Made by a program: the position numbers and the translations under genes | Part shown: positions 10,925 through 47,773 of the stretch, one piece after another | How the letters are laid out: every line of letters starts with the position of its first letter | How positions within the stretch are numbered: position 1 is the stretch's first letter | Assembly (NCBI GenBank): GCA_003712055.1 | Contig: RHLJ01000001.1 | Location: forward strand, 806,001-870,000 | DNA from: Balneola sp. | GTDB taxonomy: Bacteria; Bacteroidota; Rhodothermia; Balneolales; Balneolaceae | Direction: 5' to 3' | Length of the DNA: 64,000 nucleotides | The notes under the pieces: generated by a model | The model's database searches: none | Told to the model about the DNA's origin: nothing | The model's input: the letters and a program-made list of their open reading frames with translations, nothing else

Positions 10925-12178
10925 ATGAAAGTACTCCTCTTCTCACTAGTAACAGCCAGTTTATTTCTCATTATGGGATGTACACAAACTGAAACTCCCC
11001 CATCTAAAACAGCTGCCGAAATACTAGGTGATCCAAATTACCAAGCGATTTCCTATGGGGCTTTTCGGGAAAACACCAGGGATATTGTCCCTACGGTTGA
11101 ACAGATTAAAGAAGATTTAATCATTCTTTCTGCTTTGAACATCAAGGTATTGAGAACTTACAATACCCAGCAGTACCCACATGCTGAGAATATCCTCAAA
11201 GCAATAAAATCACTAAAGGAAGAAGATGACTCTTTTGAAATGTATGTGATGTTGGGTGCGTGGATTGAAGCCAAAGGTTCCTGGACGGATACAGTTATTC
11301 ATGATGAGGAAAACCTGGAGAATAATACTGCAGAGATAGATGCAGCAGTAAGAATGGCTAAAGAATATCCGGATATTGTGAAAATCATCGCCGTTGGTAA
11401 CGAAGCAATGGTTCACTGGGCTGCTACTTATTTTGTTACCCCGGATATCATTCTTAAATGGGTGAATCATCTTCAAGACCTTAAAGTCAAAGGCGAGCTC
11501 CCTGCCGATCTCTGGATTACCAGTTCTGATAATTTCGCTTCCTGGGGTGGCGGTGGAGAAGAATATCTAAATGATGATCTTGCCAGTCTTGCTGCAGCCG
11601 TCGATTTTGTTTCCATGCACACTTACCCTTTTCATGATAGCCATTATAATAGTGCGTATTGGTTGAGCAGAAGCGAGGAGGAAAATCTTACTGATACAGA
11701 GCGAATTGATTTAGCCATGATCCGTGCCAGAGATTATGCAAAAGCTCAATACCAAAGTGTAGTAGATTATGTCACTGGGCTGGGACTAGATAAGCCCGTG
11801 CATATTGGTGAAACGGGCTGGGCTTCTGTTTCTACTGATCTGTATGGCTCAACAGGTTCAAAAGCAGCTGATGAGTACAAGCAAAAGCTCTTTCACGATC
11901 ACTTAAGGGAATGGACTGATGCAGAAGGAATTGCCTGCTTCTATTTTGAAGGTTTTAATGAACAATGGAAGGACAAGCTAAATCCAACCGGTTCTGAAAA
12001 TCATTTCGGATTATTTACTATTGATGGAAAGGCCAAATATGTACTTTGGGATGTAGTTGATGCGGGAACCTTTGATGGAATGACAAGAGATGGAAACCCT
12101 ATCACTAAAACCTATGATGGCAACCTGGATGACTTAATGGATGATGTCGTCGCTCCGGAGTTTGAGGGTCAGGATTAA
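10925..12178 (+). CDS. GH17 family beta-1,3-glucan hydrolase, lipoprotein
   Basis: Start taken at the ATG at 10925 (a TTG lies just before it). Residues 1-20 form a lipoprotein signal with lipobox IMGC. The rest is a GH17-type TIM barrel: YGAFRENTRDIVPTVEQIKEDL at the N-terminus, the acid/base in VGNEAMVHW (Glu160) and the nucleophile in IGETGWAS (Glu296), both matching GH17 signatures. GH17 enzymes cleave beta-1,3- or 1,3/1,4-glucans or act as beta-1,3-glucanosyltransferases. Being a lipoprotein, it acts in the periplasm or on the cell surface. It is cotranscribed with the GPH symporter in all likelihood. Confidence 0.88.
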   Translation: MKVLLFSLVTASLFLIMGCTQTETPPSKTAAEILGDPNYQAISYGAFRENTRDIVPTVEQIKEDLIILSALNIKVLRTYNTQQYPHAENILKAIKSLKEEDDSFEMYVMLGAWIEAKGSWTDTVIHDEENLENNTAEIDAAVRMAKEYPDIVKIIAVGNEAMVHWAATYFVTPDIILKWVNHLQDLKVKGELPADLWITSSDNFASWGGGGEEYLNDDLASLAAAVDFVSMHTYPFHDSHYNSAYWLSRSEEENLTDTERIDLAMIRARDYAKAQYQSVVDYVTGLGLDKPVHIGETGWASVSTDLYGSTGSKAADEYKQKLFHDHLREWTDAEGIACFYFEGFNEQWKDKLNPTGSENHFGLFTIDGKAKYVLWDVVDAGTFDGMTRDGNPITKTYDGNLDDLMDDVVAPEFEGQD

Positions 12179-12190
12179 ACCTAATGCTTA

Positions 12191-12272
12191 GTCATCCCGG
12201 GCCCAGACCTGGGATCTGTAGTGGAAGAAAGAGATTAGCTTCTTCAGATCCCGCATCGGAGTGCGGGATGAC
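12191..12272. repeat. Nested inverted repeat between convergent GH17 genes
   Basis: GTCATCCCG (12191-12199) pairs with CGGGATGAC (12264-12272), and inside it GGGATCTG (12211-12218) pairs with CAGATCCC (12245-12252). A similar GTCAT...ATGAC element is at 21437-21516. It fills the space between two genes that converge, so it may also act as a bidirectional terminator, although no clear poly-T tract follows. Confidence 0.6.
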
Positions 12273-12285
12273 CATTTACTAGTAA

Positions 12286-13224
12286 TCAAAAATACTCCTG
12301 AAGAACCAGCTTCGGAGTTCTGTCTACTTTGAAAAGCCCCCAATGCTTCTCAGGTTCGAGAGGCTCAGGGGAACCTTTCCAGGGTTCGTCAAAAGCTTCG
12401 AACACAAAAGTCAGCACATCCTCTTTATAGCTCCATCGAATTAAGTCCTCGTAGTACTTCTTCTGGAATTCTTCATTCACATTATGAGGCTCAATCCCTC
12501 TACCATTCGATTTAGTCGTCCACCCTGCTTCCGTTATTACCACTTCCTTATGAGGATATTTATTAACTACTGAGTAATAATTCTCTTTAGTGTATGCCAT
12601 TGACTCATCAATGGATTTATACTCCCAAACCGGATAGGTATGAATAGAGATGAAATCTACTACTTCAACCAGAGATTCTAATTTGTGTAGCCAGGTTAAG
12701 TAGTTCTCACAGAAGGTAACTGGCTGACTCGTCTCCTGTTTTACCCTTTCTACAAAATGAATAACTCGATCAACAGGAACCATATGATCAGTCCATTCAA
12801 CCGTAGCTTCATTCCCTACTGAAAGTGAGAATATAATTTCTGGATACTCATTTGCGAGGCTAATCAGCTTTTGAATGCGCCCTTCATTCCATGCCTTATT
12901 CTGTTCTAGCTCCTCATCAGAATACATACCTCCCCAGGGGCAATTTGGATTACTTACTTCGGCCGCGATATAAGCTCCCATCATCACCTTGAAATCAAGA
13001 TTCTCTTTCTTTATCACCTCAAGAACCCTTTCTGAATGAAGATCACAATCATATAAACGAAGATATTTCCAATGCCCATGAAGGATCATCAGGTCTTCTT
13101 TGATCTCTTCATAAGTAGGAAAAACCCCAGTATCCGGGCTTTGCCCTTCTCTAAATCCGGAATAGCATATTGCCTTCCTGGTATAAAACTCCAAGTCTTG
13201 TATTTCCGCCATCTGTCTACTCAC
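12286..13224 (-). CDS. GH17 family beta-1,3-glucan-active enzyme, cytoplasmic-type
   Basis: A 312-residue GH17 barrel without signal peptide. Acid/base in VGNEATVEW (Glu139), nucleophile in ITEAGWTTK (Glu232). The N-terminus, AICYSGFREGQSPDTG, is the first barrel strand with the GFREGQ block shared with the next protein. It is the last gene of a three-gene minus-strand operon, 13 bases after its GH17 neighbour. Lack of a signal suggests it works inside the cell on imported oligosaccharides, or as a transglycosylase; this is inference. It is only distantly similar to its neighbour. Confidence 0.87.
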   Translation of the reverse strand: MSRQMAEIQDLEFYTRKAICYSGFREGQSPDTGVFPTYEEIKEDLMILHGHWKYLRLYDCDLHSERVLEVIKKENLDFKVMMGAYIAAEVSNPNCPWGGMYSDEELEQNKAWNEGRIQKLISLANEYPEIIFSLSVGNEATVEWTDHMVPVDRVIHFVERVKQETSQPVTFCENYLTWLHKLESLVEVVDFISIHTYPVWEYKSIDESMAYTKENYYSVVNKYPHKEVVITEAGWTTKSNGRGIEPHNVNEEFQKKYYEDLIRWSYKEDVLTFVFEAFDEPWKGSPEPLEPEKHWGLFKVDRTPKLVLQEYF

Positions 13225-13237
13225 TTAATAAATTCAG

Positions 13238-14122
13238 TCAGAATTTAAGGTTTTCATCTTTATCCCATAACCCCCAATATGCACCAACATCTCCTTCGGC
13301 TCCCACTTTCCAGGGTTCGTCGAATGAAGAAAAGTAGAAGATCTCGATATCTTCATTGGCTGACCATATCTGAGTATTAATGAAATACCTCATAAAATTC
13401 ACATCCGAAGGGTGTGAATCCTTAAAAGACTCTCCTTTATTTGGCCAACCAGTTTCGGAGATTATAACTCTTTTTCCTTTGGCTGCCCGTACTGCCTGGT
13501 TGAACATGTCCTTCATATAAAGCAGAGAATAATCAATATGGCAGCCTTCCCAATAAGGGTAGCAATTAGCCAGAATTACATCTGTGGCATCAACGATTTC
13601 CGGGTGGCTTGAAAATTCATAATAAGCGTCTACATAGCCCACAGGTATGTTGGGAATGGCTTCCTTAACTCTATGTATAAAGCCTAATAATTCTTCCAGA
13701 CTTAGATCACCACGGTATAAAACTTCGTTTCCAACTGCTGCGATATCAACATGACCAGCTTTTGCTAGTGAGATTAATGACTCAATTTCACGTTCATTTT
13801 TGTCAGCATCTGTACCCAGCCAAGCTCCAACCATGGTTTTTAAACCATTTTCGTGAGCAATTTGAGGGATTAATTCATTGCCATCGGTACAAGAAAACGA
13901 TCGTACCCATTTTGTATAGGGCTTCAGGATTTCCATCCGGCGCCGAATTTGTCCTTCCGAAAGCTGATCACCAGGCTCCTGCCCCTCTGTATAGGCACTA
14001 AATCCGATCCCGTGCATTCCTGATTCCAGAGTTTCTCTGAATAATGCAGGCAGATTTTCATCTGCTTCAACTGTACCAATTGCTCTTAACAGAGCAAACC
14101 TATTTTCCTTTTTATATGACAT
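13238..14122 (-). CDS. GH17 family beta-1,3-glucan-active enzyme, second intracellular copy
   Basis: A 294-residue GH17 barrel, no signal peptide. It shows GIGFSAYTEGQEPGDQLSE (first strand), the acid/base in AVGNEVLYRG (Glu133), the nucleophile in ISETGWPNKG (Glu223) and FYFSSFDEPWK near the end, which the neighbouring GH17 also has as FVFEAFDEPWK. ETGWP is the classical GH17 signature. It lies between a secreted GH2/GH5-like lipoprotein (21 bases upstream) and another GH17. Two cytoplasmic GH17 paralogues side by side suggests division of labour on linear and branched beta-1,3-gluco-oligosaccharides. Confidence 0.87.
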   Translation of the reverse strand: MSYKKENRFALLRAIGTVEADENLPALFRETLESGMHGIGFSAYTEGQEPGDQLSEGQIRRRMEILKPYTKWVRSFSCTDGNELIPQIAHENGLKTMVGAWLGTDADKNEREIESLISLAKAGHVDIAAVGNEVLYRGDLSLEELLGFIHRVKEAIPNIPVGYVDAYYEFSSHPEIVDATDVILANCYPYWEGCHIDYSLLYMKDMFNQAVRAAKGKRVIISETGWPNKGESFKDSHPSDVNFMRYFINTQIWSANEDIEIFYFSSFDEPWKVGAEGDVGAYWGLWDKDENLKF

Positions 14123-43393: not shown

Positions 43394-43774
43394 TTAATGG
43401 GCTCCAGCTGCGGTGAGCATACTCGCTACCGAATTATGCCGTTGAGCTACGGCTTGATCCAAGGCAGACCAACCACGATCGTCGTGTACATCTACTTCAC
43501 TTTCATGTTCAATAAGCAGTTGAACAATTTCTTCAAATCCATTCGTCGAGGCCCAATACAATGCGGTAGTACCCCGGTTATCCCTATGATCAATTTCTGC
43601 GCCTTGATCAATTAATAAAGTCACAATATCAATATGACCATGCTTAGATGCTTTTAAAAGAGCTGTGCGATCGTGTTCGTCTTTAGTGTTCACGTCTACT
43701 CCATCGTTTAGGAGCCCTTTTACTGTCTCGAGGTCGCCATTTTCAGCGGCATCAAGAAATATTTCATCATTCAT
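43394..43774 (-). CDS. Ankyrin-repeat protein
   Basis: 126 residues made of about four ankyrin repeats: LDAAENGDLETVKGLLNDG, DRTALLKASKHGHIDIVTLL, GTTALYWASTNGFEEIVQLL, GWSALDQAVAQRHNSVASML. No signal and no other domain, so a cytoplasmic protein-binding module with unknown partner. Stands alone upstream of a strong terminator. Confidence 0.88.
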   Translation of the reverse strand: MNDEIFLDAAENGDLETVKGLLNDGVDVNTKDEHDRTALLKASKHGHIDIVTLLIDQGAEIDHRDNRGTTALYWASTNGFEEIVQLLIEHESEVDVHDDRGWSALDQAVAQRHNSVASMLTAAGAH

Positions 43775-43891: not shown

Positions 43892-44824
43892 CTATACTTT
43901 TTGCGGCTTAGCTTCCCTGATCAATATTCCTTTTCGGTTTAGTTCACCAAGTACTAACTCGGTAATTTCACTCATCAAAAGAAACTCGTACCTGATATCA
44001 ATTACATACACTTTAACCTTTAAATGAACCACGAAATTTTGTTCGTGAACTTCATTTTTAGCTATGACAGCAATCGGCTTTTTTAGAAAAGTGTATTTGG
44101 ATGAAACTGCTGCTTTATAAGCAATAGCTTTTACCTCTGGTATGGAAACATCAAAGGGTAAATAAATAGAAGTGACTACCTGACAATCTAAAGCTCCGGA
44201 GTTCGAATTAGATACCGCGTTATTTACAATATCTGCATTTGGTAATGAGATCAAGGAATCATCTGGAGTAACAATTCTGGTAGATCGTAAGCCAATATCT
44301 GTTACCTCCCCATAATGACCACTAACCTCAATTTTATCTCCAACCTGGAAAGGTCGATCCAGAATAATGATAAATCCGCCGAAGATATTCTTCAAAATAT
44401 CCTGAGAAGCGAAACCTACGGCTAGTCCGATAGAAGCTCCTACAGTTAGTATGGTTTCGATAGGAGGAGCAATGATTCCGGCTATCACAATGAAAATCGC
44501 AAATGACCACAATGCAATATTAATAAATGGAGCAAGTCTTTTAATTATTAACCGATAGGAAGGCCTGGTTTCTGCAAGAGCGCTCAGCAAAAAGGATAGA
44601 AACCGACTGATAAAGTAAGTGGCAATTAATACAATAAGGGCTGATAAGATCTTTGTAAACGAAAAGAAATCACGGAATGAACCAATCTCAGACTGTACCG
44701 AAAGCCTAACCTCCGAAGTATCGGACTGTGCTACAGAAAGTGAATCTTGAGCAAATACATCCGTTCCTGCTAAAAAGATTAACAGCAGCACTAATAGAAC
44801 ATTAACAACGATCCTTCTTTTCAT
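43892..44824 (-). CDS. MscS-family mechanosensitive channel
   Basis: 310 residues with an N-terminal signal or first helix (VVNVLLVLLLIFLAGTDVFA), about three more hydrophobic helices (52-72, 94-115, 118-140) and the pore region GASIGLAVGFASQDILKNIF followed by the MscS beta domain (GDKIEVSGHYGEVTDIGLRS, SLISLPNADIVNNAVSN). It opens under membrane tension. It lies 12 bases downstream of a 978-residue ATPase gene on the same strand, almost certainly one operon. Confidence 0.9.
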   Translation of the reverse strand: MKRRIVVNVLLVLLLIFLAGTDVFAQDSLSVAQSDTSEVRLSVQSEIGSFRDFFSFTKILSALIVLIATYFISRFLSFLLSALAETRPSYRLIIKRLAPFINIALWSFAIFIVIAGIIAPPIETILTVGASIGLAVGFASQDILKNIFGGFIIILDRPFQVGDKIEVSGHYGEVTDIGLRSTRIVTPDDSLISLPNADIVNNAVSNSNSGALDCQVVTSIYLPFDVSIPEVKAIAYKAAVSSKYTFLKKPIAVIAKNEVHEQNFVVHLKVKVYVIDIRYEFLLMSEITELVLGELNRKGILIREAKPQKV

Positions 44825-44836
44825 CAGTCCATCCTC

Positions 44837-47773
44837 CTAAATAATGTTTTTCAATTTTAACTGACGAACTACCTGCCTGTAAATCAGCTTATTAAGTACA
44901 TAATGTGCGCCCTCTCTTTTAACCAATATTCCTCTTGAGGCAAGCCTTGAAATAATCATTTCACAATTTCGCTCTTCCGAATTAAGTATGGTGGATAGCT
45001 CAAGTGCATTCATTGTATCGTGCAGAATAAAAGCATGCAAAGCGAATAAAGCTGTTGAATCAAGTCCATCCAGCCTATTAGTAGCAAAATTAAATGGGTT
45101 GATAAAAAAATGTGATTCTGTGATTTCTCCGATAGATCGAATCCAATAAATAATGGCTACTGTGGAATTGCCCTCAGCCATTTTCGACAATTTGGAGAAA
45201 AACTGATTTTTCAAATACTCTTGTGCGGCTTCGTCATCATCCAGGAGTTTCCGGTAGGCTCTGCTCTTCTTTGCTGATGCATCGGCATTAAATCTAAGCT
45301 GGTAACCACTCGCCTTTTGCCTGTTCATTATTACTGATTCGATCTCACTCTCTTCCTTTAGCTCGGAAGAAATTGTGTGGCTAAAGTATTCCGAAATGTT
45401 CAGTACAATATTGAAAAAACTCCAGGTATATCTTGAAGATGAAACCACCCATAGTACTTCCTTTCTTGTTTCTGAAAGAACATATAACAAGCACTCAATG
45501 GCCCCATAGCCATTCATGTTTCTCAAGAAACAGTTTTGGATATCTTCAACATAGATAATCGAACCCTTTCTGTTCTTCTTGATCTTTGCTACAAGTTCTT
45601 TCGAGGAAGAAACTTCTGATAGTGAAAGCTTATTTGCCAGTTCCCTTATTATCTCTTCTTCGGATGCCACTGTATATTTCATGGGTATTTCGTACACCTT
45701 CTCATCAGCCAGTATCTCATCTTTAACCAATCTGAAAAAAGTCGACCGACCACTTCCTTTTTCTCCGATAATAGCTAGCGAAGCAGGGAACCCTCCCTTC
45801 CACAGTTCCAGTACTCTCTTACATTCTTCTACATTCAACTGGTCTCTTATAAAAAAAGAAGCTTCAATATCTCTCTTAAAGTCGAATAGCTTGCGATATA
45901 TGAATGGTAACTGTTCAAATTTCTGGTCAGTTTCGTGTAGAAAGGTGGCCAGATTAGTACTGTCTTCTGATTTCTTACCACTCTTTGAGATGCCTAGATA
46001 ACTTCGTACCGATTCATCGTACTGCTTGTATTTCTTAGTAACAAATCTCCAGAACAGGTCGATACGATCCAGTAAACTAGCCCAATACACAGTGAATTTA
46101 GTTTGCCAATCATAAGCAGACTCTTTCACCTTTAATTGAGCTCCCATCCATTTAACGTCCCCAGCATTTTGGTTAACAAGGAACTCTGATAGCTTGTCAA
46201 CAAGTATCTCATTCTGAGCATTAACTATAGAAGTTAGCTTCTTATGACTTTCTTCAATCAACTCTCCCACTTCGTTAACTTTGGTAAGACTCCGTTCGAG
46301 TCCTTCCCTGGCTATATCATCCTGCTCATTTTTTTCTTCTTTCTCTATCTCGTCAATAATGGCAAGGTTAGTCTCAATAATCTGGATAATCTCATTAAAG
46401 TGAGGAATAAATGAGACTACATATTGTTCCGGATTAATTTTGACATTGTCTAGTTCAAGAGCGATGTGTGTACCCAACATACGTTGCACAAATTTCTGCC
46501 AATCAATTTGCTGGGCATCAAATGTGGGAGGTTCAGATTGGATATTCATTTCTTCCACAAACATTCCCTTAGTCGGCTGTCCCTTCCAGAAGTCGGTTAC
46601 CTTATTCACGTAATCTGCAAACAATAATTGAATCTTTTGACTCTCTATCAGCTCAGAAAGCGGTGAGTTAATCTCGTTCTCCACTATTCCTAAAATTTCT
46701 TGTCTTATTTCACTACAAATTGCTGAAAATTTCTTTTGATCAGCATCCTGAAAATTGCTCAGCGTATCAATTGCTTCTGAGATTGAGCTAGACAGTTTGG
46801 AATGAGAACTAAAGAGTACTTTTTCGAAAATATCACTCAGCTGCTGATTGAGTTTATCTGCCGCATCTTCCAATCGGTTTTCGAAGTGATGAAGTTCAGG
46901 TAGAAGTAGCAAGCGGGCTTCGATAGCATCAAACAGAGAATTCCATTCTTTATCGTATTCTTTGATTATTCTCCTGAAAACTTCCGCTTTATACTCTATT
47001 ACTTCGTCATGGAAGTATTCCTTCTCTAGTTCAATAGTTCCAACAATTGAAAGATATCGAGACAAACGCTCCGAGCGGGTCTTAAAAGCTGCCACCAATT
47101 CTTTCTGATGCTCCTTAACCAGCTCTTGCCAGGTATCGATATTTTTTTCTATGAATTGATCGAATGAAGGTTTTTCTTCTTCCCCCTCCGATTCAGTAAA
47201 AACCCAATTTTGGAGCTCATCTATTACCGTTGCACACTGTCTAAGCTGAGAAAGTCTCCAGGCCGAAATCTGTGGTATAAGGTCAAGAATTGCAGCCTTG
47301 CAAATATTCTTTAATGGCACATGGCGCAGCAGAGGCGAATATTCCACCTCCTCTTTTCTAAGTGCTCTTCTGAATGCATTACTCAGTATCAGCGCTCCTT
47401 TTCGAGTCGCTCTCTTAATACTTTTAAACACTTTTGCTATAGAAATATAAAGGCTATCCCCTTTTTGCCTTACAAACCTTTCCCTCTCCTGGACAAGTTT
47501 GATTAGTTCAGGAATTGGTTTTGTGGTTTCATCCAACGCCTCTAACCAAATCTGGTCCAAATCTGAAGGATGTACTTCATCCAGCCTACCGAGTATCTTA
47601 ATTGATTCAATAGGAATCTTTTTTCCTGATCCTTTTTGCTGCGCCTCTTCAAATTTTTTAAGTATTTCTTTGAGATGTTTTTCGGGAATATGTGTTAGCG
47701 CCTTCTCAAACACCTCGTACGTAGGATTCCAGTATTCAGCAATTAATTTTTCGACGTTGTACCCTGGCTCCAT
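44837..47773 (-). CDS. Large coiled-coil P-loop ATPase, partner of MscS
   Basis: 978 residues, no membrane segment or signal. The first 640 residues are helical and charged with coiled-coil runs. The Walker A motif is at about residues 664-672 (GEKGSGRST), Walker B near 736-742 (SIIYVEDIQ) and an SSR motif near 781 (VVSSSRYTW) like an AAA+/STAND-type sensor Arg. The end (about 900-978) resembles winged helices (FALHAFILHDTMNALELSTIL, RLASRGILVKREG). It looks like a regulatory ATPase with large helical sensor part. I cannot name a family. It is the first gene of a two-gene operon with MscS. Confidence 0.75.
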   Translation of the reverse strand: MEPGYNVEKLIAEYWNPTYEVFEKALTHIPEKHLKEILKKFEEAQQKGSGKKIPIESIKILGRLDEVHPSDLDQIWLEALDETTKPIPELIKLVQERERFVRQKGDSLYISIAKVFKSIKRATRKGALILSNAFRRALRKEEVEYSPLLRHVPLKNICKAAILDLIPQISAWRLSQLRQCATVIDELQNWVFTESEGEEEKPSFDQFIEKNIDTWQELVKEHQKELVAAFKTRSERLSRYLSIVGTIELEKEYFHDEVIEYKAEVFRRIIKEYDKEWNSLFDAIEARLLLLPELHHFENRLEDAADKLNQQLSDIFEKVLFSSHSKLSSSISEAIDTLSNFQDADQKKFSAICSEIRQEILGIVENEINSPLSELIESQKIQLLFADYVNKVTDFWKGQPTKGMFVEEMNIQSEPPTFDAQQIDWQKFVQRMLGTHIALELDNVKINPEQYVVSFIPHFNEIIQIIETNLAIIDEIEKEEKNEQDDIAREGLERSLTKVNEVGELIEESHKKLTSIVNAQNEILVDKLSEFLVNQNAGDVKWMGAQLKVKESAYDWQTKFTVYWASLLDRIDLFWRFVTKKYKQYDESVRSYLGISKSGKKSEDSTNLATFLHETDQKFEQLPFIYRKLFDFKRDIEASFFIRDQLNVEECKRVLELWKGGFPASLAIIGEKGSGRSTFFRLVKDEILADEKVYEIPMKYTVASEEEIIRELANKLSLSEVSSSKELVAKIKKNRKGSIIYVEDIQNCFLRNMNGYGAIECLLYVLSETRKEVLWVVSSSRYTWSFFNIVLNISEYFSHTISSELKEESEIESVIMNRQKASGYQLRFNADASAKKSRAYRKLLDDDEAAQEYLKNQFFSKLSKMAEGNSTVAIIYWIRSIGEITESHFFINPFNFATNRLDGLDSTALFALHAFILHDTMNALELSTILNSEERNCEMIISRLASRGILVKREGAHYVLNKLIYRQVVRQLKLKNII

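Follow-up and report, generated by a model that had tools for sequence, protein, structure and literature searches.

MscS channels are usually regarded as gated by membrane tension alone, and to our knowledge the way in which bacteria coordinate potassium uptake, cation exchange and mechanosensitive release is largely unsolved. Several described systems place a membrane protein under a dedicated regulator: TrkH-TrkA joins an ion channel to an adjacently encoded cytosolic partner that senses nucleotides, the KATP channel (Kir6/SUR) joins a membrane channel to a P-loop nucleotide-binding regulator, KefC-KefF combines an exchanger of the cation/proton antiporter (CPA) type with a cytosolic regulator of its own, and the bacterial cyclic-nucleotide-gated MscS-like channels and MscK add to an MscS core an input beyond tension. 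Here we describe a gene pair in a 64,000-nucleotide stretch of Balneola sp. (contig RHLJ01000001.1, positions 806,001 to 870,000; hereafter the window), in which a large P-loop protein is encoded next to an MscS-family channel. TrkA is a Rossmann/RCK protein, whereas the partner here has a P-loop AAA+/STAND fold and the channel is MscS, although TrkH and TrkA themselves sit in the operons of fused relatives. In the KATP channel SUR belongs to the ABC proteins and Kir6 is a channel for K+; no homology to either is claimed, and gating at this locus is what we infer. KefF is a flavoprotein, whereas here a large P-loop region is the regulator candidate, and 13 CPA loci have it fused to the exchanger; and the cyclic-nucleotide-gated channels and MscK carry the regulatory domain inside the channel chain, in contrast to the separate large protein found here. 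STAND NTPases and the AAA+ proteins ORC/Cdc6 and TnsC share the fold of residues 620-978, but in the present family the Walker B Glu is absent and the Walker Lys often lost, and the context is ion transport rather than DNA or cell death. An earlier, sequence-only reading of this DNA knew of no described system of this kind, and none was found in the open-access literature; the passages of PMC9909488 consulted mention Msc channels in Fodinibius and no partner.

We propose, with a probability of roughly 0.55, that the pair works as a single module in ion and turgor homeostasis, in which a P-loop switch acts on a dedicated MscS partner. The P-loop gene (978 amino acids; 44837..47773, minus strand; recognized as an open reading frame with a weak AAA_22 match) encodes the putative regulatory switch, and the MscS gene (310 amino acids; 43892..44824) follows on the same strand. 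Their coordinates agree with the 12-base spacing given by the sequence-only reading (44825..44836), and a Shine-Dalgarno-like AGGAGG overlaps the stop codon of the upstream P-loop gene, a position consistent with translational coupling of the pair. A promoter scan gave 15 promoter-like sites against 13.1 expected. With 4 MscS genes in the 3.63 Mb of the source genome, chance adjacency would be rare, and the arrangement recurs in relatives.

Among the 112 distinct P-loop proteins left in the fetched loci after duplicate removal, 103 are accompanied by a neighbouring MscS gene on the same strand. A further seven (L034, L063, L069, L099, L124, L142 and L150) end at a contig edge on the side where their relatives carry MscS, and the last two, the remote L089 and L154 (52 and 47 bits), have no MscS match in the adjacency count. 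In both of these remote loci the P-loop gene is followed by a gene for an MscS-like protein (231 and 241 amino acids) and then by an unfused Na/H exchanger gene; the MscS-like proteins match each other (E 1e-20), and PF00924 is matched weakly in L089 (E 0.029), with no Pfam match of any kind in L154. Three loci that appeared to lack MscS (L057, L061 and L062) proved to be errors of open reading frame picking in GC-rich DNA, since a six-frame search revealed an MscS that overlaps the point where the P-loop frame had been predicted to start; in L057 the adjacency count scored it as downstream, by its stop-to-stop frame, although it lies at the 5' side. The sequence-only reading had named gene neighbourhoods as the place to look, and what they hold is a family in which MscS is adjacent throughout, apart from truncated or remote members; the refuting case named by that reading, a family living mostly without MscS beside it, is thus not what was observed. 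Functional coupling of the two proteins is therefore well supported by gene order.

The two genes are also present and absent together. The P-loop protein occurs in 30 of 58 related genomes, and the partner MscS subfamily in 31, namely the same 30 and G030, where the contig starts within the MscS gene. In one of the genomes with both (G049) the pair lies on different contigs, the P-loop gene being truncated at the end of one and the MscS gene lying 300 bases from the start of the other. With 30 genomes having both, 0 the P-loop protein only, 1 MscS only and 27 neither, Fisher's exact test gives p 1e-15, uncorrected for kinship. More widely, the P-loop family was found in 73 of 394 sampled genomes of the phylum, and a scan of named genomes with a single peptide pattern, which is not a census, returned 55 loci in Balneolaceae, other Bacteroidota, Ignavibacteriota, Calditrichota, KSB1, SAR324 and Acidobacteriota.

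In most loci MscS lies downstream of the P-loop gene; in SAR324 and in the sampled relatives that share the window's class but not its order it lies upstream, and the pair is kept. Phylogenies built from the P-loop core and from MscS, both quick FastTree estimates with long branches, give nearly the same groups. The cotransporter-fused, the short and the class-level MscS-first members each form a single group in both trees, and the CPA-fused members are united in the P-loop tree (support 93) and require two changes in the MscS tree. The distance matrices of the two proteins correlate with r 0.71 over 103 protein pairs (permutation maximum 0.15), a value that shared ancestry alone could produce.

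The identification of the downstream gene as an MscS channel in the sequence-only reading was borne out by PF00924 (the MS_channel beta domain, 78.6 bits against a cut-off of 20.2) and by 37 Protein Data Bank (PDB) sequences at E <= 0.001, the best solved relative being 7dlu (E 1.4e-15). Its third transmembrane helix (TM3), the pore helix, has the Gly/Ala packing pattern (GLAVGFASQDILKNIFGG), and in the group of soluble and short homologues (86 rows) G133, A135, G137, A139, Q141 and N146 are kept in at least 98%. The same group strongly conserves the subfamily motif K-V/A-Y-V-x-D-I-R-Y-E (KAYVxDIRYE) of the cytosolic domain, found by alignment at residues 271-280 of the window protein (43985..44014, minus strand). 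This is a dedicated subfamily: in the relatives searched it occurs only with the P-loop protein, and its orthologues score at least 226 bits, with all other listed MscS proteins at or below 92 bits. In genome G037 the partner MscS is broken across two frames (L029 3747-4837), through a frameshift or an assembly error.

The P-loop protein begins with a helical half (residues 1-593; 45995..47773, minus strand; pLDDT, the predicted local distance difference test score, about 85), continues with an AAA+ core (residues 622-899; 45077..45910, minus strand) recognized by structure comparison and by the family signature LP[FY]IY[RQK][RK]LF that opens it at residues 622-630, and closes with a predicted winged-helix-like domain (residues 900-978; 44840..45076, minus strand), whose conserved His918 is His in 104 of 109 aligned homologues. 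The AlphaFold2 model (mean pLDDT 85.7, predicted template modelling score 0.49, with uncertain relative placement of the domains) thus agrees with the sequence-only reading in both the long N-terminal helices and the winged-helix end. Sequence searches placed the protein less readily: AAA_22 matches at E 2e-5, under the Pfam cut-off, no NCBIfam model reaches its cut-off, and no PDB relative appears at E <= 0.001, the best matches there being mitoribosomal proteins at E 0.31, which we took as chance. By structure, residues 620-978 fold like ORC/Cdc6, TnsC and NLRC4. Foldseek matched 1w5t_A (E 1.4e-7), and VIA aligned ORC2 1w5t_C (Z 15.0, root-mean-square deviation (rmsd) 6.4, 321 residues over 621-977), 7mbw_A (Z 14.6, rmsd 4.0, 258 residues) and NLRC4 4kxf_F (Z 13.5, rmsd 5.2, 273 residues), all at 12-13% sequence identity. 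No Pfam STAND profile matches the window protein at E <= 1; nSTAND1/nSTAND3 matches below cut-off occur in three relatives (L064, L068 and L147). In the model no ligand-sensing repeat domain follows the winged helix, where the protein ends at residue 978. Modelled alone, the helical half gave no Foldseek match at E <= 0.001, and its VIA matches to a designed helical bundle (4uos; Z 14.2, rmsd 3.9, 183 residues aligned) and to a dynamin stalk (5owv; Z 10.1, rmsd 4.7, 221 residues aligned) fall in the chance range, so that no family is claimed. This half is not needed for pairing with MscS, because six distinct homologues naturally lack it and still have MscS adjacent.

The nucleotide site is degenerate. 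The P-loop of the window protein, GEKGSGRS (residues 670-677; 45743..45766, minus strand), within the Walker A sequence GEKGSGRST, carries Arg676 in place of the Walker Lys, which is present in 81 of 110 aligned homologues and gone in the other 29. The Lys is found in 17/17 fused, 6/6 short and 0/14 scored MscS-upstream homologues, and this position has changed at least seven times on the tree, with the channel partnership retained throughout. Position 744, which we take to be the site of the catalytic Glu in AAA+ enzymes, holds Asp in the window protein, and none of 111 aligned homologues has Glu there. The sequence-only reading was right that a P-loop core is present; its Walker A/B motifs need correcting, its sensor-like Arg exists at position 781 in the window but is shared by only 46 of 109 aligned relatives, and its label of ATPase is doubtful. 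From the frequent loss of the Walker Lys and the absence of the Walker B Glu, we prefer a degenerate nucleotide switch to a demonstrated ATPase; an ordinary ATPase is probably not what this gene encodes.

The physiological setting is suggested by the 17 of 103 paired loci in which a membrane domain is fused ahead of the P-loop region: 13 carry a CPA antiporter, 3 a domain of K-Cl cotransporter type, and 1 (L064) an eight-transmembrane domain without family assignment. Pfam finds Na_H_Exchanger in ten of the antiporter loci (L053, L054, L055, L119, L132, L135, L137, L138, L141 and L146); in L056, L134 and L147 the exchanger was matched by phmmer, with queries cut from L138, L119 and L089, and not by Pfam, and L056 also matches CPA2 in NCBIfam (E 2e-7, below cut-off). 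AA_permease is found in L066, L068 and L088, with SLC12 too in L068 and L088, and the best NCBIfam match of L068 is a K-Cl cotransporter model (E 2e-112; 377 bits, below its cut-off of 953). Of the 17 fused loci, 13 also have TrkH and TrkA genes on the same strand, which is 13 of the 14 non-cotransporter loci; the fused loci without them are the three cotransporter fusions and L134, where the contig ends. Many CPA-fused operons encode, ahead of the antiporter fusion, a conserved membrane protein of about 414 amino acids that reaches no Pfam cut-off (L054 10688-11956, L056 3727-4968, L135 2397-3641 and L141 2331-3575), with weaker matches in L064, L119 and L132.

Taken together, the strict pairing, the joint presence and absence, the persistence of the pair when gene order is reversed, the two fusion classes and the Trk neighbours make an ion and turgor role the best reading of the pair. 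The P-loop protein would be a cytosolic, nucleotide-responsive switch of AAA+/STAND fold, with its hydrolysis site impaired or absent, whose most likely docking place is the cytosolic face of its dedicated MscS; its nucleotide state may set the opening threshold or the inactivation of the channel. We infer physical binding, nucleotide binding, gating and a physiological role for the pair, and nucleotide-dependent gating of MscS, as the sequence-only reading imagined it, is plausible. In relatives the putative switch is covalently joined to an antiporter or a cotransporter-type domain and is found in TrkH/TrkA operons, and these fusions and operons lead us to suggest that it would match the uptake or exchange of salt to the release of solutes. 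More tentatively, and as something we would not yet bet on, the family may be a hitherto undescribed equivalent, in bacteria, of nucleotide-regulated channels, with a degenerate STAND/AAA+ switch that senses nucleotide state and tunes MscS and that, where fused to antiporters or K-Cl cotransporters and joined by TrkH/TrkA, forms a hub for salt influx, exchange and emergency release. The pairing of the switch with MscS and its fusion to salt transporters suggest an undescribed module for ion balance and cell pressure. With a dedicated MscS partner across several phyla and fusions to both transporter types, coordination becomes directly testable in a defined protein family.

Several observations weigh against the switch acting on a gated MscS pore. 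The loss of the Walker Lys in 29 of 110 homologues includes the window protein, so nucleotide dependence may be lost in this copy. The co-occurrence statistics and the distance correlation are inflated by shared ancestry. A docking surface on the cytosolic domain of MscS, sought from conservation, was given up after a paralogue control: identity in partners and paralogues was 0.74 vs 0.60 for TM3 and the beta domain and 0.61 vs 0.50 for the C-terminal (cytosolic) domain, so that the partner is the more conserved overall, and because the cytosolic domain is not disproportionately so the surface is not demonstrated. This control, from 18 genomes, used 18 of the 21 paralogues examined (L003 counted), leaving out L171, whose partner MscS is split, and L177 and L179, which belong to other subfamilies. 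Finally, most displayed CPA-fused members lack the Gly/Ala pattern of the pore helix, so MscS may not be a gated pore in these operons, and the eroded TM3 favours a scaffold or sensor role for it there.

That erosion is also what gives some weight to a reversed flow of information, in which MscS or its beta domain would be the membrane-tension sensor and scaffold and the P-loop protein the effector that adjusts the fused antiporter or cotransporter, Trk or other targets. Where the P-loop protein carries a CPA or cotransporter domain, the MscS-like protein stays adjacent even though its TM3 pattern has gone or its length has dropped to about 240 amino acids, and the fusions among the 103 pairs join the P-loop protein to transporters and never to MscS; but the soluble and short branch, to which the window belongs, retains its pore residues as a working pore would, and we consider the reversed flow rather unlikely. 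The AAA+ fold and the strict pairing with membrane proteins would also suit a factor for the assembly, insertion or quality control of MscS and certain transporters. The loss of the Walker B Glu in all aligned homologues and of the Walker Lys in 29 of 110 is, however, unlike what is seen in energy-driven chaperones, and stable, covalent attachment to transporters points to a subunit in fixed stoichiometry, which makes such a factor improbable.

The suggestion in the sequence-only reading of a stress or defence sensor that opens the channel divides in two. Osmotic and ionic homeostasis is the part favoured, given the CPA and K-Cl cotransporter-type fusions and TrkH/TrkA. An anti-phage or abortive-infection device, for which the likeness of the fold to STAND proteins such as NLRC4 (4kxf) and the weak nSTAND matches in relatives might speak, is not supported, because PADLOC assigned 0 defence families to the two proteins, no relatives were found among the plasmids, phages or viral contigs searched, and the pair sits at a stable chromosomal locus whose neighbourhood is conserved in the window's family; with the transporter context as well, a defence role is unlikely and this device very improbable. 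Simple co-transcription of two functionally unrelated genes, with which the short gap by itself is compatible, is the least probable of all, as the pair persists in several phyla, survives a reversal of gene order and is present or absent as a unit.

Some neighbouring genes deserve mention. Immediately downstream of MscS the window encodes a 126-amino-acid ankyrin-repeat protein (43394-43774, minus strand), which may be separately transcribed because a strong promoter-like site (43845-43817, 11/12) precedes it; genes matched to it on length alone stand at the same position in several relatives (L070 5697-6077, L072 4598-4978 and L073 5613-5993). A gene for a CorA-type Mg2+ transporter lies downstream of the pair in a Melioribacteraceae metagenome-assembled genome (L090 9593-10675), and phmmer places CorA-type genes near the pair in L050 and L096 as well. 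In L076 MscS is followed by a gene for a Peptidase M49-like protein (11611-13257), and several other relatives have a gene of similar length, by length comparison only, after MscS.

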